Shown here: in pieces, positions 6,139 to 16,320 of the stretch | How positions within the stretch are numbered: the first letter of the stretch is position 1 | Layout: each line of letters begins with the position of its first letter | Origin: Chloroflexota bacterium | Lineage (GTDB): Bacteria; Chloroflexota; Dehalococcoidia; SHYB01 | DNA length: 52,047 nucleotides | NCBI GenBank assembly: GCA_016875535.1 | Contig: VGPF01000011.1 | Location: 1 to 52,047 of the forward strand | Direction: 5' to 3' | The notes under the pieces: model-generated | Databases searched by the model: none | What the model saw: the letters and a program-made list of their open reading frames with translations, nothing else | Told to the model about the DNA's origin: nothing | Position numbers and translations under genes: made by a program

Positions 6139-6891
6139 ATGCAATTGCAGGGCAAGGTAGCGATGGTGACGGGCGCAGGCTCCGGAATAGGACGCGCCAT
6201 CGCGGTACGCTTTGTTCAAGAGGGCGCTAAGGTCGCTGTCCTGGATGTCAATCAGGCAGGCGGTGAAGAGACGGTCCGCCTGGTGCGCGAACGCGGGGGG
6301 GAGGCGGAGTTCATCAAATGCGATGTCTCGCGGCCCGCGGACGTAAAAGAAGCCGTCACCGCCATCACCCTTCGATTCGGCATGCTACATATCCTGGTGA
6401 ACGATGCCGGCATCCTCAAACTGGAGGATGCATTGGTGGAAGAAGTGCCGGAAGAGATATGGGACGCAGTCATCGGCGTCAATCTGAAGGGCGTTTTCTA
6501 CTGCTCCAAGTACGCCCTTCCTGCGATCATCGCGTCCGGAGGCGGCGCGGTCGTGACGATCGCTTCAACGGCAGGCGCGATCGCCTTTAACCGCCCTGCA
6601 TATGCCGCTTCGAAAAGCGCGGTTATCCCGATGACGCGCGCCCTTGCCCGCCAGCATGCCAAAGACAACGTGCGCGCGAACGTGGTTTGCCCCGGCGGCA
6701 CGGATACGCCGCTAACCCACAGCCAAGGCGTGCCTCCCGCCGGTCAAGGCCCGGCAAAGATACCGGCCATGATTAAGCGCAGGGCCCAGCCGGAGGAGAT
6801 CGCAGCGGCCGTGACCTTCCTTGCCTCCGATGAGGCCTCGTATATCACCGCGGCCGTATTCCTCGTAGACGGGGGGCTGACGGCGTTATGA
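6139..6891 (+). CDS. Short-chain dehydrogenase/reductase (classical SDR), cluster gene 1
   Basis: Predicted NAD(P)-dependent alcohol/ketone oxidoreductase of 250 residues. The cofactor motif TGAGSGIG is at residues 11-18; Asp36 at the end of the second strand favours NAD(H). The structural NNAG motif reads NDAG (88-91), an unusual Asn to Asp change. Ser143, Tyr155 and Lys159 complete the catalytic set, with Asn115 in VNLKG. The C-terminal VDGG motif is present. Its last four bases overlap the next SDR (ATGA), so the two are translationally coupled. The substrate is unknown; relatives include 3-oxoacyl-ACP/CoA reductases and cyclohexanol-type dehydrogenases. Confidence 0.92.
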   Translation: MQLQGKVAMVTGAGSGIGRAIAVRFVQEGAKVAVLDVNQAGGEETVRLVRERGGEAEFIKCDVSRPADVKEAVTAITLRFGMLHILVNDAGILKLEDALVEEVPEEIWDAVIGVNLKGVFYCSKYALPAIIASGGGAVVTIASTAGAIAFNRPAYAASKSAVIPMTRALARQHAKDNVRANVVCPGGTDTPLTHSQGVPPAGQGPAKIPAMIKRRAQPEEIAAAVTFLASDEASYITAAVFLVDGGLTAL

Positions 6892-7664
6892 CAGCAGCGC
6901 AGCGGAGGCGGTTCGAAGGCAAAGGAGTCATCATCACCGGCGGGGGCTCAGGGATCGGGCGCGCGACGGCGCTCGCATTCGCTCGCGAGGGAGGGAATGT
7001 TGCGATAGGAGACATTTCCGAAGCAGGCATGACCGAGGTGACACAGACAATAGAACGGGAAGGCGGCAAGGCGATCTTCGTGAAGGCGGACGTCTCCAAG
7101 GCAGCCGATGTGCAGAACCTTGTGAACCAAGCAGTGAAAAGCTTCGGCGCTGTCCATATCCTCTTTAGCAACGCCGGCATCTATGCGCAGAGTGACACCA
7201 GGGTCATGGATCTGGATGACGATGTCTTTGCCAGAGTCATAGATGTCAACTTGAAAGGGATGTTCCTCTCGGCGAAATATGCGTTGCCCCACATCGTAAA
7301 AAGCGGAGGCGGGGCTGTTGTGATGACTTCCTCCATCGGCGCGCTTGCCGCGGCGTCAACGACGGCATATTCATCAAGCAAGGGGGGAGTATTGGCGCTG
7401 ATGCGCACCATCGCCGTCGAATATGCGGCTAAAGGCGTGCGCGCGAACGCGATCCTGCCCGGGCCTGTGGATACGCCCATCATGACGGACGTGCGCGCCG
7501 CCATGGGCCTTCCGCCAGACGGCAAGATGCCAAAGGGGAACATGCAGAACCGGTGGGCGAAACCCGAGGAAGTAGCCAGCCTGGTCCTATTTCTCTGCTC
7601 GGAAGATGCCTCATACATGACCGGCGGGTCGTTCACTGTGGACGGCGGACAATCGGGGATGTGA
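6888..7664 (+). CDS. Short-chain dehydrogenase/reductase (classical SDR), cluster gene 2
   Basis: A 258-residue classical SDR. TGGGSGIG lies at 17-24, Asp42 points to NAD(H), SNAG at 94-97 replaces NNAG, and the catalytic residues are Ser149, Tyr161 and Lys165. PGPVDTP and TVDGG at the C-terminal end are standard. It overlaps the preceding SDR by four bases and is followed by a third SDR 48 bases on, forming one transcription unit. It resembles its upstream neighbour in the LKGxFxxxKYALPxI stretch, which suggests an old tandem duplication. The substrate cannot be read from the sequence. Confidence 0.92.
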   Translation: MTAAQRRRFEGKGVIITGGGSGIGRATALAFAREGGNVAIGDISEAGMTEVTQTIEREGGKAIFVKADVSKAADVQNLVNQAVKSFGAVHILFSNAGIYAQSDTRVMDLDDDVFARVIDVNLKGMFLSAKYALPHIVKSGGGAVVMTSSIGALAAASTTAYSSSKGGVLALMRTIAVEYAAKGVRANAILPGPVDTPIMTDVRAAMGLPPDGKMPKGNMQNRWAKPEEVASLVLFLCSEDASYMTGGSFTVDGGQSGM

Positions 7665-7712
7665 CCTGAGGCCGTCCGCAGCGTCCCGTAGCGACGGCAT
7701 TGGAAGCACGTG

Positions 7713-8612
7713 ATGCAGAGCCTGTTGGAAGGAAGAGTAGCGGTCGTCACGGGTGCAGGCAGGGGCATCGGTCGAGCGGTTGCCCATAGGCTTTCGGAGA
7801 TGGGCGCGGCCGTCGTCATTAATGACCTTGGGACATCAACGGACGGCACGGGCGCGGATACCTCTCCCGCCGACCAGGTTGTCGGGGAGATACGGGCAAA
7901 AGGTGGTCAAGCTGTCGCGAGCTACGATAGCGTCGCCGATTTTGAAGCGGCAGGGCGAATCATCGGGACTGCCGTAAAGACCTTCGGCAAGATTGATATC
8001 CTCATCAACAACGCCGGCGTCAATATCAGCGCTCCCATCTACGAAATCACGCCAGAGACGTTCGCCACCGTCGTTGGCGTCCACGTCTCCGGGACGTACA
8101 ACTGCACCCGCCATGCTTGCGTCTACATGAAAAACCAGAAGTGGGGACGCATCGTCAACATGGTCTCCCGCGCGAGTCTCATCGGCAGTGTGGGGAACTC
8201 TGCCTATGGAGCCGGCAAAGGCGGGATATTCGGCTTCACGAACGTCGTAAGCCGGGATCTCGCCCCCTTCGGCATCACCGTGAACGGCGTCAACCCGGAT
8301 GCTGCAAACACGCGCATGGTCACCGAAAGCCGGGCACGCTGGAAGCAGGCGGGCCCGAATCCCACTGAAGCCAAACGCATGAAGACCGTGCCGCAAGACC
8401 CCGACAACATCGCGATTGTTGTGACCGCTCTCTGCACCCAGGAGGCCGCACACATCAGCGGCCAGTATTTCCTTGTCCAGGGAAGCCTTGTGGGCCTCTT
8501 TCAGCCGCTAACTATCACAAAGCATATCTACAAGGATGGCATGTGGACCCCAGAAGACCTGGCAAAGGCAATGAATATGATGGGAATACCTCATCTCCCT
8601 GTGGCTTACTAG
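7713..8612 (+). CDS. SDR with C-terminal extension, 3-hydroxyacyl-CoA dehydrogenase-like
   Basis: A 299-residue SDR. TGAGRGIG is at 13-20, NNAG at 99-102, and Ser152, Tyr165 and Lys169 form the active site. The insert VINDLGTSTDGTGADTSPAD after the second strand is the one found in SDR domains of multifunctional beta-oxidation enzymes and related (3R)-hydroxyacyl-CoA dehydrogenases, so an acyl-CoA substrate is plausible. The last 45 residues (QPLTITKHIYKDGMWTPEDLAKAM) extend beyond the usual SDR end. A GTG at 7710 directly before the ATG could also serve as start. It is the third gene of the SDR transcription unit and runs toward the selenoprotein gene on the other strand. Confidence 0.88.
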   Translation: MQSLLEGRVAVVTGAGRGIGRAVAHRLSEMGAAVVINDLGTSTDGTGADTSPADQVVGEIRAKGGQAVASYDSVADFEAAGRIIGTAVKTFGKIDILINNAGVNISAPIYEITPETFATVVGVHVSGTYNCTRHACVYMKNQKWGRIVNMVSRASLIGSVGNSAYGAGKGGIFGFTNVVSRDLAPFGITVNGVNPDAANTRMVTESRARWKQAGPNPTEAKRMKTVPQDPDNIAIVVTALCTQEAAHISGQYFLVQGSLVGLFQPLTITKHIYKDGMWTPEDLAKAMNMMGIPHLPVAY

Positions 8613-8701: not shown

Positions 8702-10405
8702 TTACCGGGGCCTCTTGATCTGACGAGTGATCGAGAGGGAGCCGCCGAAGTGGTAGAGACTACGCCCAGCATCGCCGCCAACGACGAAGATATCGAAATA
8801 ATCAGGGTTGCGGAACATGGATATCTCCGTCTCAGGACGGTCCCAGAGCCACTGGAGATGCGGATGCGCAACCTGAAAGGCCTGCTTTGGCTTGTTGAGC
8901 ATCAGGGTGCGGAAGGGCAGGCGCGAACGCTTGTACAAAGCCGCTTTCACATCATGGAGGCTCCAACCGGCGTTACGAAAGACGGTGGCGTGGTCGGGAC
9001 AGAGCAAGATAAGGTTTTGGCGCTCACCATGGAGAGGGCCACCTTCATCCGAGGTGCCGAGCAGCCAGTTGGCTGAGCCTGTTTGCGCGCCGTTCCGGAT
9101 CGCGGAACAGAAAGATTCAATGAGAAGATTCGGGTCGTGGTTCTGGAAGTCGAAGAGCTCACACACGCCGTAAGGGACGTTGACAGTCACGGTGGAGGAG
9201 TCCCGCGGATACCCGCGCGCCACGCGATACGGCTCCCAAGGGTTCGCAGCCTCGTTCTCGGCGACGCAGGCGCTGAACTTCATTGCGCTTCCGATAGTAT
9301 CCATATCACTCACGCCAGGATACGAATGGCCGATATTCATCAATATGAGCCTCAACGTCCGGCCGATGCTCACATTAACGGCTGATATGGAGCCGGGGCC
9401 CAAGGCGCATACGCCATGGTTCATCCCGATCTCCTCCGTAATCGGCCCGCTGACCATAACTACAGGCGCTTGGGGGCCGGTGGACATGGCAAAGGAGCGA
9501 AGCCCTATCAAGGGATCCAGGATGCATTCGGCCATGGCAAGTATGACGGGCATGACCTGGGGCTTGCATCCGGCCATGACCGCATTGACAGTGATCTTCT
9601 CAACGGTCCCGATGCCAAAGCCGGGATCGAAGGTACCAACGATCTCGTCGCCCTTGCGTCCGGAAGCCGCGACCATCGCATCCACCTTCTCTCGGGTCGG
9701 TGGCACAAGGGGCATCCCGTCGCTCCACCCAGCCTTGATGAAGGCGGTGTTCATCTCGTCAAAGCATTCGAGCAAGTCACGGCCCGTGTAGACGAGTTCA
9801 GGGCTTGTGGCAGGGGTAACATGCTTGAAGACCAGTGCCCCGGTGATGGGCTGCCGCTTTTGCGTCAGGGCGGCCAGGACCTGCGGCATCGCCGCATCAA
9901 CCATGGTATGGATGTGCCCTGGATCCTGATTCGTGAAGGGAAGCGGGACCTCTGCTATGGGCATTTCAGGGCAGCCGAAGACGTTGGCGCTCCAGTGGGC
10001 ATCTTCGACAAAGCCCTTGGCCGTCCAAACCACCGTCGCGACGCCCCGCTTCTCCAATTCGCTCATGTCACGCATGAGCACAGACGTGCAACTGCCTCAG
10101 TCGGCGGTTGCGCCGACCACAGCAGCGCATTCGGCCATGCTCTTGAATTGGGCAGGCGACGCTCTGCGAATGAAGGACACCCCTAACTCGCCGAAGAAGT
10201 CGCGAAACTGCGCCTTCGGGAAGAGGCGCTGAAGCTGCTCCCTGGTGCGCGCGAGTCCGATCTCGCCGCCGGCTTTCGCGTTCCAGAAGAACCCGACCGT
10301 CTTTCCATCGAGGGTTGTTGGGCGCGCGGCGGGCGGGAAGCGGTTTGCTCGCGCAGTTGTGGACCTCGCCTCTGCGATTGGGTTCACGATGCGCAGTTCA
10401 GCCAT
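8702..10405 (-). CDS. UGSC-family selenoprotein with in-frame TGA (selenocysteine)
   Basis: A single 567-residue gene interrupted by TGA at 10097-10099. The codons after it read Gly-Ser-Cys, giving U103-G104-S105-C106, the motif that names the UGSC family of (seleno)proteins. Both sides match the family: KTVGFFWNAKAGGE and FIRRASPAQF before it, CTSVLMRDMSELEKRGVATV after it. A large second domain, from about residue 205, begins WSDGMPLVPPTREKV and carries VNAVMAGC. A SECIS-like hairpin starts 17 bases after the TGA. The ATG at 10405 has AGAGGAG at good spacing. Translation restarting after the TGA would lose the first domain. Function is unknown; a thiol/selenol redox role is a guess. No selenocysteine machinery genes lie in the window. 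Confidence 0.88.
10061..10079 (-). promoter_or_regulatory. Bacterial SECIS-like hairpin downstream of UGA
   Basis: On the coding (minus) strand, GCTCATG (10079-10073) and CATGAGC (10067-10061) form a perfect seven-base-pair stem closed by the loop CGTGA. The stem begins 17 bases, and the loop 24 bases, after the TGA, inside the spacing known for bacterial SECIS elements (loop roughly 16-37 bases after UGA). The loop contains G and GU-like residues that SelB recognises in known examples. It lies within coding sequence, as bacterial SECIS elements do. Confidence 0.75.
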
Positions 10406-10429
10406 GATGACTCCTCTGTGCCACCTGAA

Positions 10430-10470
10430 GAAGAGGGGTATCGGCGAGTGCTTCGCCGATACCCCTCTTC
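10430..10470. terminator. 18-bp perfect hairpin, probable terminator
   Basis: The arms 10430-10447 and 10453-10470 are perfectly complementary over 18 bases with a five-base loop. It lies just downstream of the minus-strand solute-binding protein gene (stop at 10490) and 25 bases before the selenoprotein start, so it should end the upstream transcript or act as a strong processing signal. No T tract follows on the minus strand, so classical intrinsic termination is uncertain. Confidence 0.6.
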
Positions 10471-10489: not shown

Positions 10490-12199
10490 TTAGGCAGAAA
10501 GCCAGACCCGCTCGAATCGGTACCCGTTCGAATTGACTCCCACGGCTTGAAGAGGGAAGTCCTTTACCTCGCGCGAGAGGGCCTGAAACCGTTTTGTCTC
10601 CGCGGCGGTAATCCACCATGCGAGCTCAACAGACTTTCGCTGAAGCTCCCGGAGCTTTGCTATACGCACTGCACGATCACCAGTCTCGTCCTGCTCTTTG
10701 TACAGGCGGTTGATATCCGGCAGGTCGTATTTCGCGTAATTCTCGGCAACCCCAGGGAGGTAGAACCGTCCATAGTAGCCCGCCGGGTCATCAACGACAG
10801 GCGCGATGCCGCTGAAGTGCGTCGCAAAGGCGCCCGTGTTCCTTCGCTGCAAGATGGTCGCCATATCAACACCCTCGACGGCCATGTCTATGTATATCGC
10901 TCTCAATTGGGTCGCTAAGACTGTTGCCTGATCGCCGTATTGAGCGGCGCTGACCATTACTGAGGTCTTGAGCGGGTTCCTTTCACTGAACCCGGCTTGT
11001 TCCATTAACGACTTGGCTTGCGCAAGGTCCTGAGTCTTCGGAGTCCTCCACCCCGGCAATGTCTTGACTTCGTCCGCAGGCATCGCCCAGATAGTGGCCG
11101 AGGGCAAGCCGTCAACGGCATAGGGATTGCCGGAACCGAAGAGCGCGACTTGCACGTAGGCGGGGCGGTCGAAGGCGAGTTGTATGGCCTGCCTAACCCT
11201 CGCGTCAGTGAAAGGCGCTTGGGTATTGATAAAGAGAATCCCCATGCCGCCAGCCGATTCCAGGATTTGAACTCCAGGAACGGCAGATTTGAGTTGCGGC
11301 GCGTTCAACGCATTCACAATCTGGGTGGAGACGTTGGTCCAATGCAATCGCCCGGTTTGGAAGGCGGCAAGGGCGGCCGCGTTATCGGCAATGACGTAGG
11401 AGTCTATCTGGTCGAGATAGAGCGCCCCTTTAAGGTAAAAGTCGGGGTTCTTTGTCAAGGTCACAACGTTTCCGGGCCTCGCGACGGCATATTTGAAGGA
11501 GCCTGAGCCGATGCGCTTAGACCCCCACTCCTCGCCTATGTGCTTGGGCAACACGACTGCATGAGTGCTGAGAAGGCCGCTGAGAAAGACCAGGTTCGGC
11601 CTTGTGAGCTTCACCACAACGGTTGAAGAGTCGGGCGCTGTGACGGTATCAACAGTGGCTAAGAGCGAACCCAGGAGAGGGGAAAAGGCAGGTTGGCGCT
11701 TGGACATGCGCAGCAGGCTGTAGACGACGTCGTCAACGGTTAAGGGTGCGCCGTCGTGCCACTTCACGCCCTGGCGAATCTTAAAGGTCCACGTTGTGCC
11801 GTCGGCGCTCTGCGTATAGCTCTCGGCGAGGTCCGGCTCGATGGCTGTCTCGTTATAGGCGCCGTATCGGATCAGGTTGTTCACAAGGGGTTGGAGCGGC
11901 AGAATAAAGGAGTCCGCCGAACGCGCCTTGTGAAAGTCGTTGTTTGGATTGGGGTCCGAACTTACCCGGGTGGCGAATGTTCCGCCCAGGCGTGGCGAGG
12001 GCGTCGGCGTCGGAGGGATAGGGGTTGCTGTCGGAGTAGGCTGTAGGGGGGTCGCCGTTGGGGCCGGTGTGTTAGTAGGAGCAGGTCTGCTCGTGGCAGT
12101 CGGAGGCGTCTCATCGTCGCCACCACAGCCACTCAGTACCAGAGCCATCACCAGAAAGCACGCGAAAATCGTTACTATTGGGCGATTCAAGAACTTCAT
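10490..12199 (-). CDS. ABC-type peptide/nickel-family solute-binding lipoprotein
   Basis: Extracytoplasmic family 5 (DppA/OppA/NikA-like) solute-binding protein, 569 residues. A lipoprotein signal peptide ends in VLSGC with Cys25 as the lipidated residue. A linker of repeated Thr-Pro (residues about 30-70) follows, then the mature domain starting at GGTFATRVSSDPNPN. The family block WTFKIRQGVKWHDGAPLTVDDVVYSLLRM is clear. I chose the ATG at 12199 (GAGGA eight bases upstream, clean signal peptide) over an upstream in-frame start at 12283. It is a close paralog of the gene at 14644-16320. No permease or ATPase genes are adjacent, so its transporter must lie elsewhere or it has another role. Confidence 0.93.
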   Translation of the reverse strand: MKFLNRPIVTIFACFLVMALVLSGCGGDDETPPTATSRPAPTNTPAPTATPLQPTPTATPIPPTPTPSPRLGGTFATRVSSDPNPNNDFHKARSADSFILPLQPLVNNLIRYGAYNETAIEPDLAESYTQSADGTTWTFKIRQGVKWHDGAPLTVDDVVYSLLRMSKRQPAFSPLLGSLLATVDTVTAPDSSTVVVKLTRPNLVFLSGLLSTHAVVLPKHIGEEWGSKRIGSGSFKYAVARPGNVVTLTKNPDFYLKGALYLDQIDSYVIADNAAALAAFQTGRLHWTNVSTQIVNALNAPQLKSAVPGVQILESAGGMGILFINTQAPFTDARVRQAIQLAFDRPAYVQVALFGSGNPYAVDGLPSATIWAMPADEVKTLPGWRTPKTQDLAQAKSLMEQAGFSERNPLKTSVMVSAAQYGDQATVLATQLRAIYIDMAVEGVDMATILQRRNTGAFATHFSGIAPVVDDPAGYYGRFYLPGVAENYAKYDLPDINRLYKEQDETGDRAVRIAKLRELQRKSVELAWWITAAETKRFQALSREVKDFPLQAVGVNSNGYRFERVWLSA

Positions 12200-12614
12200 C
12201 CTTGTCCTCGCTTTCCCCAACAGAATCCTTCGCCGATCGGTGAATCGAGTGCCCAGATTCGCGCCTGGCCCCAATTCTCTCACCTGCTGTCTATGGCTCC
12301 GAGTGTGACCACAGCCTCTGAATCAGGAGGAGGCCATACATGGCACGATATGCATCCGATGCAATCTCTACCTACGACGCTGGCAGCAATGCCAGAATTG
12401 TCGCTGGCTTAGCACCCGGGATCCATCGCGATGGGGCATCCGGCATGCTCCGTCATATCTGGGACATCCCGCCAGGTGATTCGAGGTCCTTCCTTAAGCA
12501 GGGGGTAATCGTCAGAAATGCGGGCTAGTCACAGCGGTATCCAGGCATCCCAGGGCGATAGTATTATGACCAACGTTCCTGTAGACGGTGTGCCTCATAG
12601 AGAAGGGAGCGGCC
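12200..12614. other. Intergenic region between divergent genes
   Basis: The region separates the solute-binding lipoprotein (minus) from an SDR (plus). It contains one small frame with a strong ribosome site, listed separately. No clear consensus promoter was found by eye. Confidence 0.4.
12340..12528 (+). CDS. Possible small protein, 62 residues
   Basis: The only support is an excellent Shine-Dalgarno run (AGGAGGAGG) ending six to seven bases before the ATG. The sequence matches no family I know. It is mostly polar, with GLAPGIHRDGASG in the middle and no membrane segment. It could be a genuine small gene, the truncated start of a lost gene, or a chance frame upstream of the SDR at 12615. 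Confidence 0.3.
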   Translation: MARYASDAISTYDAGSNARIVAGLAPGIHRDGASGMLRHIWDIPPGDSRSFLKQGVIVRNAG

Positions 12615-13448
12615 ATGTTGGATCTCACTGCGGTTTCACTCAAGGGCAAAGTTGCGATCGTGACCGGAGGAGGCGGAGGCATAGGACGGAGTGTCTCTGA
12701 AACGTTCGCTGCCTATGGGGCGAAGGTGGTCGTCGCCGAACGGGATGCCGGTCGCGCGCACGAGACCGTCGCCGCCATTGCAAAACGAGGCGGGCAAGCC
12801 TTGGCCTCAGTAGTGGATGTCCAGGAAAAAGAACAGGTGGCCCAGATGAAGGCTGCCGCGGTCAAAGAGTTCGGAAAGGTTGATATCCTCGTGAATAACG
12901 TCGGCGACTTTCTGGGCATCAAAAAGAACTTCATCAGAACGTCAGAAGAGGACTGGGAGGCGCTCTACCGTATCAACCTGAAGCAAGTCTTCTACTGCAC
13001 CCATGCCATCGCGCCGCTCATGATCGAGCAAGGAAAAGGCGGCAGCATCATCAACGTCTCCACCATAGAGGCCTTTCGCGGCATCCCGGGCGGCTCTATC
13101 TATGCCACGTTTAAGGGGGGCATCACTCAGTTCACAAAGAGCATTGCGTTGGAGCTGGCGAAATACCAGATCCGCGTCAACGCGATCGCGCCGGAGACAA
13201 CCGAAACCCTGCAGGTGCAGGCTGTCGAGCGTGTTCCCCCGGAGCAACGGTCGTTGATCCCCTACTGGATACCCCTGGGCCGCTACGGCGATCCGGACGA
13301 CCTCGCAGGGGTGGCTGTCTTCCTGGCATCGGACCTCTCCCGATGGGTGACGGGCATCACCGTGAACCTTGATGGCGGCGCCTATGCTGCGGGAGGCTTT
13401 TACCGCCAACCAAGCGGCGGGTGGACCAGTCGTCCCCCTCTCGCATAA
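12615..13448 (+). CDS. Short-chain dehydrogenase/reductase (classical SDR)
   Basis: A 277-residue SDR with TGGGGGIG at 17-24, NNVG (94-97) in place of NNAG, Ser149, Tyr163 and Lys167 (YATFK). A C-terminal extension beyond VNLDGG ends in an aromatic/Pro-rich tail (GGFYRQPSGGWTSRPPLA), longer than usual. A GTG at 12588 would add nine residues, but the ATG at 12615 has AAGGGAG at the right distance and aligns with the usual SDR start. It is monocistronic as far as visible, divergent from the solute-binding lipoprotein. The substrate is unknown. Confidence 0.9.
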   Translation: MLDLTAVSLKGKVAIVTGGGGGIGRSVSETFAAYGAKVVVAERDAGRAHETVAAIAKRGGQALASVVDVQEKEQVAQMKAAAVKEFGKVDILVNNVGDFLGIKKNFIRTSEEDWEALYRINLKQVFYCTHAIAPLMIEQGKGGSIINVSTIEAFRGIPGGSIYATFKGGITQFTKSIALELAKYQIRVNAIAPETTETLQVQAVERVPPEQRSLIPYWIPLGRYGDPDDLAGVAVFLASDLSRWVTGITVNLDGGAYAAGGFYRQPSGGWTSRPPLA

Positions 13449-13677: not shown

Positions 13678-14418
13678 TTATGAGCCCATCTTGTGCATGG
13701 GCCGAACGGCACCGACGGGGCTGACTCGCTTGAAGGTGTTGACGTACCACATCTCCCTGGAGGGGTGTTTCGCCCATTCCTTGAACATCGGGGTCTCCTC
13801 ACCCAGCAACCGCCTTACCGTCGCCACCATCTGGCGAACGTCGCTATCGGGGTCCTCGCTATCAAGCTCGTAAAGGTGCAGCCAAAGGGGTCCTTCCGTT
13901 TGGGAGAGGGCGTTCTCATAGCGCGTGATCATGGTGAAGCCCTTGGGCATTGCCTGGACGATGTAGCGGATATGGATATGCTCCGCCCACCGGGTGAAGT
14001 CCTTATCGCCGCGAATCATGACTAGCGATATGCCGTTGATCGGCTTCTCGGACGTGTGGCCCTGGGCCGGTTCCGGCCTGCGCCAGAACATCGTTTGGAA
14101 GGTGCACTGGAAGGCCGGGTGGAGCTCCCCTGTCTTCTCCCACTCCTGCCAACGGCGTTGCATCGCATCATAGGCTTTGCGGGTATCCGGCCAATTCGTT
14201 TCGTAGATCGTGCAATAGATGGCCTCGGGGACACGTCGCTCGTACTCAGGGCGGTTCGGGGCGGTGTTCCTGAACCGGATGCCGTTATAGAGCGCTCCTG
14301 TCCCAATCATCTTTGGGATATGCACCTTCTCGTACCATTCGTTGAAGGCCACTTCGGCCTTCGGGTCGGTGCAGTTGGCCATCTCGATCAGCACGCCTGT
14401 GGGTGTCCTATCTTCCAT
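13678..14418 (-). CDS. Uncharacterised protein, two ferredoxin-like (dimeric alpha/beta barrel) halves
   Basis: 246 residues, no signal peptide. Two half-repeats are visible. The first (residues 8-110) carries FNEWYEKVHIPKMIGTGALYNG and the second (about 130-230) carries FTRWAEHIHIRYIVQAMPKGF. The pattern of Trp then His-x-Pro/Arg in the first helix of each half is that of dimeric alpha/beta barrel proteins such as EthD-like and DUF-type enzymes found beside SDR and CoA-transferase genes in catabolic clusters. The assignment of fold is an inference from these motifs; no reaction can be named. It lies downstream of, and on the same strand as, the second solute-binding lipoprotein, but a strong hairpin separates them. 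Confidence 0.7.
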   Translation of the reverse strand: MEDRTPTGVLIEMANCTDPKAEVAFNEWYEKVHIPKMIGTGALYNGIRFRNTAPNRPEYERRVPEAIYCTIYETNWPDTRKAYDAMQRRWQEWEKTGELHPAFQCTFQTMFWRRPEPAQGHTSEKPINGISLVMIRGDKDFTRWAEHIHIRYIVQAMPKGFTMITRYENALSQTEGPLWLHLYELDSEDPDSDVRQMVATVRRLLGEETPMFKEWAKHPSREMWYVNTFKRVSPVGAVRPMHKMGS

Positions 14419-14643: not shown

Positions 14644-16320
14644 CTAGGAGGCCAGCCAAACCTGCTCAAAGCGGAAGAGGTTCGCGTTCACGCCCAGGAG
14701 TCCAGGCGGGAACTGCCGCACCTGTGGTGGTACGGGGCTGACCCGCTGTGTCTCTCCCAGCATGGTCCACCACCCCAGCTCGATGGCCGCGAGCTGCAAC
14801 TCTCTCACTTTCCTTACACGCGCATTGACATCTATGATCCTGTCTTGCTCATCGTACAAGCGGTTGATGTCCGGCAGGTCAAACTTAGACCAATTGTCAG
14901 TCACGCCGGGAAGATAGAACCGAGCGTAGGTCCCGGCCGGGTCATCAATGGTGCCGGCGGCGGAGAGGAAGATGATCTCGAAGTCGCCGGAGGCTCTCCT
15001 TGCCGCGGAGGTGGCGCCGTCCAATGCTTCCACCCGCGCATCAATGAATATCTTCCGCAGCTGGGTTGCCGCCACCGCAGCCTGCTGATCGAAGTTCGGA
15101 GCGAGGGTGTGCATCCTGGTCACGAGCTTGTTGGAATCGCTGTACCCTGCCTGCTGCATGAGGGAACGCGCTTCCGCTAGGTCTTGATCCTTCGGCAGCC
15201 TCCAGCCGGGGAGAAGCTTCGCCTCCTCAGCGGGCATGGCCCAGATGGAGCTGCTGGGCAAAATGTCCACGTTGTAGGGGTTGCCATCGCCGGCCAGAGC
15301 CACCTGCACGAATTCGGGCCGGTCGTACACCAGCCGTATCGCGCGCCTCACTCTGGCATCAGTGAACGGTGCGGTCTGCTTAAGCAAGGAATAGTAGGTG
15401 CCGCTCGGCGCCTTGTTGAGGGTGACCCCAGGGATCGCGTCCCTCACCTGCTTTTCGTTCGAGGGGTTGACGACCGCAGGCGCGACGCCCGGCCAGTGGA
15501 GTCTTCCCGTGATGAACGCTGCCACCGTTGCCGCATTATCGGCGATCGTATAGTAGTCAATCTGGTCCAGGTAGGGCATGCCCTTGGCGTAATACTCCGT
15601 ATGCTTCACCAGGGAGGTGACGTTCGAGGGCTTTATTGATCCCAACTTGAACGGCCCCGACCCTATCGGCGTCTTATCGAAGTTGTCCCCCAGATGCTTC
15701 GGCAGCACCACGGCATGAGTGCTGAGTAAACCGTTGAAGAAAACCAGCGTCGGCTTGCTGAGCTTCACCACAACCGTCGAGCTGTCAGGGGCCGTCACTG
15801 TATCAACGCTTGCGAAGACGCCGACTAGCAGCGGCGTGAACGAAGACCTCTTCGACATGCGCAGCAGGCTGTGCACCACGTCGTCCGCCGTGAGCGCCGT
15901 TCCATCGTGCCACTTCACTCCCTGGCGGATCTTGAACGTCCAGGTCGTGCCGTCGCTGCTTGTCTGGTAGCTCTCTGCGATATCCGGCTCGATGGATTTC
16001 TCGTTATATGCTCCAAACCGGACCAGATTGCTGATCAGAGGTTGGGAGCGGGTCAGCGTGTCATTGGAGCGCCGGATATGGGGGTCCCAGTTCACCGGAT
16101 CGGTAGGCAGGCGCGTATTGAACGTGCCGCCGACACGCGGCTGAGGCGTTGGAGTGGGAGGAACGGGTGTGGGGGTTGCTGCGACAGTGGGCGCCGCAGG
16201 GGGTTGAGCGGGAGCCTTCGTTGCCGCTGGTTCTGAATCGTCCCCGCCGCACGCGGTGACGATAAACGCCAGCACCACAACGAGCGCGAAGAGTCTTACA
16301 TAGCGATTGACGATTTTCAT
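14644..16320 (-). CDS. ABC-type peptide/nickel-family solute-binding lipoprotein (paralog)
   Basis: A 558-residue family 5 solute-binding protein. The signal peptide ends VTAC, lipidated at Cys24, followed by an Ala/Pro/Thr linker to about residue 62 and then the mature domain from GGTFNTRLPTDPVNWDP. WTFKIRQGVKWHDGTALTADDVVHSLLRM is nearly identical to the paralog at 10490-12199, and similarity runs along the full length, so the pair arose by duplication. The ATG has GAGGAG five bases upstream, and a near-consensus promoter lies 75 bases upstream of it. No transporter membrane genes are adjacent. The ligand is unknown; peptides, opines and metal chelates are all bound in this family. Confidence 0.93.
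   Translation of the reverse strand: MKIVNRYVRLFALVVVLAFIVTACGGDDSEPAATKAPAQPPAAPTVAATPTPVPPTPTPQPRVGGTFNTRLPTDPVNWDPHIRRSNDTLTRSQPLISNLVRFGAYNEKSIEPDIAESYQTSSDGTTWTFKIRQGVKWHDGTALTADDVVHSLLRMSKRSSFTPLLVGVFASVDTVTAPDSSTVVVKLSKPTLVFFNGLLSTHAVVLPKHLGDNFDKTPIGSGPFKLGSIKPSNVTSLVKHTEYYAKGMPYLDQIDYYTIADNAATVAAFITGRLHWPGVAPAVVNPSNEKQVRDAIPGVTLNKAPSGTYYSLLKQTAPFTDARVRRAIRLVYDRPEFVQVALAGDGNPYNVDILPSSSIWAMPAEEAKLLPGWRLPKDQDLAEARSLMQQAGYSDSNKLVTRMHTLAPNFDQQAAVAATQLRKIFIDARVEALDGATSAARRASGDFEIIFLSAAGTIDDPAGTYARFYLPGVTDNWSKFDLPDINRLYDEQDRIIDVNARVRKVRELQLAAIELGWWTMLGETQRVSPVPPQVRQFPPGLLGVNANLFRFEQVWLAS

Follow-up and report, generated by a model that had tools for sequence, protein, structure and literature searches.

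A fused UGSC-family selenoprotein from a Chloroflexota bacterium and the pairing of its two domains

A gene from a Chloroflexota bacterium that appears as two open reading frames encodes, with very little doubt, one selenoprotein, in which SelB and tRNA-Sec, aided by a downstream SECIS hairpin, insert selenocysteine (Sec) at the UGA of codon 103. The protein combines a UGSC domain with a conserved second domain, and the two very probably work as a single functional unit, since elsewhere they occur either fused or encoded by neighbouring genes. Here, we describe this gene, which lies in a stretch of 52,047 nucleotides (hereafter the window; contig VGPF01000011.1), together with its homologues, its predicted structure and a proposed mechanism.

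A single TGA (10099-10097, codon 103) separates two minus-strand frames of the same phase, 10405-10097 and 10081-8702. The joined frame has 567 residues, is interrupted nowhere else and ends with TAA; the codons GGC AGT TGC, which directly follow the TGA, encode Gly-Ser-Cys. The Pfam model PF24696 covers residues 6-182 in one match of 100.6 bits (gathering score 25; model positions 2-172 of 172), while the separate halves score 26.8 bits (6e-6) and 37.4 bits (4e-9). The UGSC domain is thus whole in neither half, which counts against the TGA being a real stop. The NCBIfam equivalog NF041046 gives 88 bits across its full model (1-147 of 147), which is below its cut-off of 125 bits, and the protein is therefore filed only under the wider family PF24696. 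The first-pass annotation, made from the sequence letters, had joined the two frames into one gene on the strength of a U-G-S-C motif at the TGA and of family-like sequence on both sides of it, and these points are borne out. The splitting that it expected from a standard gene caller is seen in a Sec-type homologue from Acidovorax (NZ_CP021650), deposited as a 97-aa 'hypothetical protein' that ends at the TGA. Upstream, between the end of the SBP_bac_5 gene (10490) and the start of the selenoprotein, there is a perfect 18-bp hairpin with a 5-nt loop (10430-10470, minus strand, z -6.45); it is terminator- or attenuator-like, yet its T run is short. Rfam gave only sub-threshold matches at the selenoprotein locus.

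Table 1 Features of the selenoprotein gene and of its neighbourhood in the window.
Feature	Positions	Strand	Remarks
Whole CDS, ATG 10405-10403 to TAA 8704-8702	8702..10405	-	567 residues, Sec at 103
Shine-Dalgarno-like AGGAG, 5 nt upstream of ATG	10411..10415	-	read from sequence
UGSC domain (PF24696), residues 6-182	9860..10390	-	profile match E 1.4e-28; Rossmann/flavodoxin-like in model
TGA codon 103, read as selenocysteine	10097..10099	-	frame, homologues, dN/dS
Cys106 codon, second of the U-x-x-C pair	10088..10090	-	95% conserved in fused homologues
SECIS-like hairpin (bacterial)	10060..10080	-	8 bp, apical loop CGUGA, -9.5 kcal/mol
Second domain ('CTER'), about residues 187-566	8705..9847	-	conserved; unclassified in Pfam/NCBIfam
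Cys280 codon (NAVMAGC)	9566..9568	-	invariant: 38/38 fused, 60/60 domain sequences aligned
SDR cluster	6139-8612	+	
SBP_bac_5	10490-12283	-	
SDR	12588-13448	+	
Gene	13678-14418	-	
Second SBP_bac_5	14644-16320	-	

The genome from which the window comes (G000; 2.5 Mb, 98% complete) holds the machinery for Sec, for which the first-pass annotation had proposed a search. A tRNA-Sec with anticodon UCA is present, as are selA (541.8 bits), selB (334.3 bits) and selD (370.6 bits), the last of which itself carries an in-frame TGA. There are seven UGSC domains in this genome; six of them, the window gene included, have TGA at the Sec codon and one has Cys. Across about 116 homologous sites that were fetched, the position is occupied by Sec in 108, by Cys in 7 and by Ser in 1, so that the Sec or Cys predicted for residue 103 was found with a single exception. 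The recurrence of the same TGA in six of seven copies within the genome and at 108 sites, against 7 with Cys, indicates that the TGA is not there by chance. The rest of the motif is less strict: the middle residue varies among homologues (N, G, T, A or D), and the Cys at +3 is Ser in several of them.

Purifying selection acts on both sides of the TGA. Against four orthologues or paralogues, in all of which the TGA is unchanged, dN/dS (Nei-Gojobori) is 0.13-0.21 before the TGA; after it, the ratio is 0.06-0.22 for the remainder of the UGSC domain and 0.05-0.11 for the second domain. A pseudogene or a real stop was rejected on these values, which are well below 1 on both sides. The reading of the TGA as a real stop, giving two separate proteins or a decayed gene, agrees with the standard code and with the mechanical list of open reading frames, which contains two. 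The retained TGA, the selection on either side of it, its presence at the 108 homologous sites with Cys elsewhere, the complete Sec machinery and the division of the UGSC domain between the halves make that reading exceedingly improbable.

The nearest Cys forms come from two Nonomuraea, an Actinomycetes MAG, Sphingomonas, Oryzicola and an alphaproteobacterial MAG, and together with the window protein they fall in one starred clade of 11 rows in the tree of the second domain. A selA gene over the cut-off is missing in 3 of 6 genomes of these close Cys relatives and present in 13 of 16 Sec-type genomes. Nonomuraea harbinensis (G150, L031) carries a Cys-type fused UGSC gene despite two selA-like genes that score over the cut-off. 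Variants of the motif were also seen. Four loci (L068 5389-5895, L069 3921-4424, L073 5360-5863 and L091 2262-2732) read U-G-S-S, with Sec kept and the second Cys lost. The fused homologue with Ser at the Sec position (L103 5428-6852, SGGS) is possibly an inactive or non-redox copy. In the Cys paralogue of the window's own genome (L027 1495-2019, minus strand, contig C10), C-W-G-T replaces U-G-S-C, and a separate second-domain gene adjoins it.

In the bacterial SECIS model, a hairpin lies 16-37 nt after the UGA, with a loop of 3-9 nt, a G in loop position 1 or 2 and a minimum free energy of -7.5 or lower (PMC13188914). The hairpin of the window gene, ugcucaug-CGUGA-caugagcg, starts 17 nt past the UGA and lies within these published limits: its loop, CGUGA, begins 24 nt past the UGA with G at position 2, and its 8 bp give -9.5 kcal/mol. 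Four relatives have the identical loop, and their stems differ by wobble changes only. A hairpin by the strict definition is present in 61% of the Sec homologues, in none of the 7 Cys homologues and in 11% of background coding stretches; about 39% of the Sec homologues are without one. By itself, the window hairpin does not stand out from what its composition would give: 128 of 2000 shuffled sequences fold as well or better, and z for the 56-nt stretch is -0.21. The comparative result therefore carries the weight.

The second domain comprises about 360 residues (approximately 187-566) and has no significant match in Pfam-A, NCBIfam or the PDB sequences; the conserved domain of this size that the first-pass annotation described is real and is absent from both family libraries. 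An alignment of 60 rows shows D229, N274, C280, T309, N344, R349, N357 and E383 to be invariant and H472 to be nearly so. The domain is widespread: at least 575 stretches in genome contigs were confirmed, and it occurs in 43 of 148 related genomes. When copies at contig ends are left out, 123 copies remain: in 49 a UGSC domain is fused in front, and a further 66 have one on the same strand no more than 1.5 kb away; 115 of the 123 are therefore fused or adjacent. All seven UGSC genes of the window's own genome have a second-domain partner, fused in two cases and neighbouring in five. Changes between the fused and the split state number at least eight on the tree, four of them forced by starred branches. 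The pairing extends to haloarchaeal plasmids (L170 5965-7660, from Natrinema, and L171 5932-7536), where a Cys-type UGSC gene stands directly before a second-domain gene annotated as 'hypothetical protein'. The homologue on the IncP plasmid of Acidovorax sp. T1 (L172 5923-7600) is a Sec-type fused gene on a conjugative plasmid, near transposase genes of the IS91/IS1071 type. An orphan C-terminal fragment of the second domain (L169, G000:C27:1232-1936; 235 residues), close to the fused type and with its front part out of frame, lies about 8 kb from the second fused gene; it is either a decayed third copy or the product of an assembly break.

The joined protein was modelled with AlphaFold2 at a pLDDT of 91 and a pTM of 0.91, and this high-confidence model speaks for a definite packing of both domains. 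The UGSC domain is predicted to consist of alternating strands and helices, with the Sec at the start of the helix that follows the third core strand. The folds in its best structural rows are of the Rossmann, flavodoxin, cobalamin-binding and receiver types, with Z up to 11.2 over 131 residues. The domain is thus modelled as Rossmann-like, unlike the thioredoxin-like fold suggested in 2008; none of the 50 best rows is a thioredoxin fold, although a missing row does not exclude that fold. The second domain alone was modelled at a pLDDT of 91.7. Foldseek searches of the PDB with the full model and with the second domain alone returned nothing at E <= 0.001 (best E for the second domain, 0.24), and VIA-align gave the second domain a best Z of 5.3 over 93 residues, which by the tool's own note is chance level. 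With rows this weak we name no fold for the second domain, and their absence is no proof of a new one.

The selenoprotein gene is preceded in coordinate order by the SDR cluster and followed by the SBP_bac_5 gene, an SDR gene, the gene at 13678-14418 and the second SBP_bac_5 gene. Both binding-protein genes are therefore on the same side, with the SDR cluster on the other, and the placement of the gene between two lipoproteins given in the first-pass annotation has to be corrected. The neighbours in the window include SDRs, SBP_bac_5 proteins, an isochorismatase and a CoA transferase; near the homologues, TctC, CoA transferase, acyl-CoA dehydrogenase, MmgE/PrpD and molybdopterin dehydrogenase genes were found. 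Together, these neighbourhoods point to organic-acid catabolism with no one substrate named, and the catabolic redox step suggested in the first-pass annotation is plausible.

A mechanism can be proposed on the analogy of GrdB and PrdB, that of a reductive-lyase-like enzyme with Sec as its nucleophile. In glycine reductase, substrate binding and release of the amine are the work of GrdB (PMC13188914). For fluoroacetate, the C-F bond has been proposed as the point of attack for a GrdB-like selenoprotein (PMC10838667). In the window protein, the Rossmann-like UGSC domain would present U103 where a helix begins and C106 three positions later, and the partner domain of about 360 residues, with its invariant Cys280, would hold the substrate, which may be bound at the domain interface. 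As in GrdB/PrdB, the selenolate of U103 would then attack or polarise the substrate; the step so performed in organic-acid catabolism would be a reductive cleavage or an elimination, and either the U-x-x-C pair or C280 could resolve the selenium intermediate. The data show the open frame, the exchange of Sec and Cys, the SECIS-like hairpin, the Sec machinery, the pairing of the domains and the sequence link to GrdB/PrdB. We infer the chemistry, the identity of the substrate and what C280 does, and such a GrdB/PrdB-like selenolate mechanism is offered tentatively, as a possibility that leans somewhat to the doubtful side. The explanation taken whole, a selenoprotein whose two domains act as one unit with GrdB-like chemistry, is the best we have and comes just short of an even chance.

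The same residues could serve other chemistries. The protein may be a thiol-disulfide or peroxide oxidoreductase in which U103 and C106 pass through a selenenylsulfide cycle, the second domain being a redox partner or a substrate-binding part. The UxxC motif and the invariant Cys280 of the second domain would suit such an enzyme, and the 2008 survey groups UGSC proteins with thiol-redox or thioredoxin-like proteins and notes conserved Cys in the fused domains (PMC2398784). However, an obligatory selenenylsulfide fits poorly with the Ser at +3 in several homologues, with the UGSS forms and with the CWGT paralogue, which has no second Cys; the model is Rossmann- or flavodoxin-like, with the thioredoxin fold absent from its 50 best rows; and seven paralogues with different catabolic neighbours in one genome are more easily reconciled with substrate-specific enzymes than with a general reductant. 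We consider a thiol-redox function somewhat unlikely. It has also to be considered whether the Sec, Cys and acidic or His residues bind a metal or cofactor, so that the chemistry would be hydration, dehydration or sulfur/metal handling and not reductive cleavage. D229, E383 and C280 are invariant and H472 nearly so, and class I fumarate hydratases are among the top, though weak, structural rows of the second domain, with the Fe-S cysteine desulfidase CyuA further down. The best Z of these rows, 5.3, is at chance level, Foldseek gave no match better than E 0.24, and a metal- or cofactor-based function appears quite improbable.

The window gene is ordinary for its family, which is named and widespread. 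In 2008, UGSC selenoproteins were described among the major families in the GOS samples, and the survey's account includes a fusion of UGSC to a domain called 'Unknown_1' with at least one conserved Cys (Fig. S1A) and a 'likely Trx-like fold' (PMC2398784); the novelty implied by the first-pass annotation is accordingly smaller. What is new here is the near-obligate pairing, its broad spread, the link to GrdB and the Rossmann-like model. A 2026 review still lists the function of UGSC as uncharacterised. Because ordinary gene calling ends such a gene at its TGA, annotations of Sec-using genomes can overlook the paired module or divide it wrongly. If both the pairing and the resemblance to GrdB are true, one study of an easily expressed Cys-type form could give a function to an abundant family that has been without one since 2008. 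That UGSC and the second domain constitute a large class of two-component selenoenzymes in Bacteria and Archaea, fused or paired, often with several substrate-specific copies per genome, performing GrdB-like reductive C-X cleavage with a partner fold not yet solved, is a wider proposal that we regard as rather doubtful.

With the UGSC family (PF24696 and NF041046; the 'UGSC-containing protein' of PMC2398784), the window protein shares a match over the whole domain, the U-G-S-C motif, the exchange of Sec and Cys and the SECIS-like hairpin. It differs in its score below the NF041046 cut-off (88 versus 125 bits) and in its fused second domain, which is in neither library. The UGSC/Unknown_1 fusion is alike in that the partner joined to its UGSC domain is conserved and has one or more conserved Cys; by the description in that paper, which is the basis of the comparison, Unknown_1 is limited to a few aquatic organisms, whereas the second domain described here is widespread.

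GrdB and PrdB (PF07355) are the closest functional comparison. An hhalign comparison of the UGSC profile with a 9-row GrdB/PrdB alignment gave a probability of 92 and an E of 6.4e-7 over 72 columns, with Sec aligned on Sec; a single GrdB stretch that ends before the Sec motif gave no match. The alignment spans a common fold type, which counts against reading a mechanism from it. PrdB-like selenoproteins whose motif is U-P-x-C occur as separate small proteins in related genomes from the same class (L142-L156). The window protein has in common with GrdB/PrdB a Sec placed between a hydrophobic strand and a helix, a motif of the U-G/P-x-C/T type and an ExxGIPT segment after it. However, the common region is much smaller, PF07355 has no match in the window's own genome, and the second domain has no similarity to GrdB or, in a single-sequence comparison, to a GrdE-like protein. 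For the last two differences, the absence of PF07355 and a partner domain unlike the GrdE-like sequence, we do not classify the protein as a GrdB.
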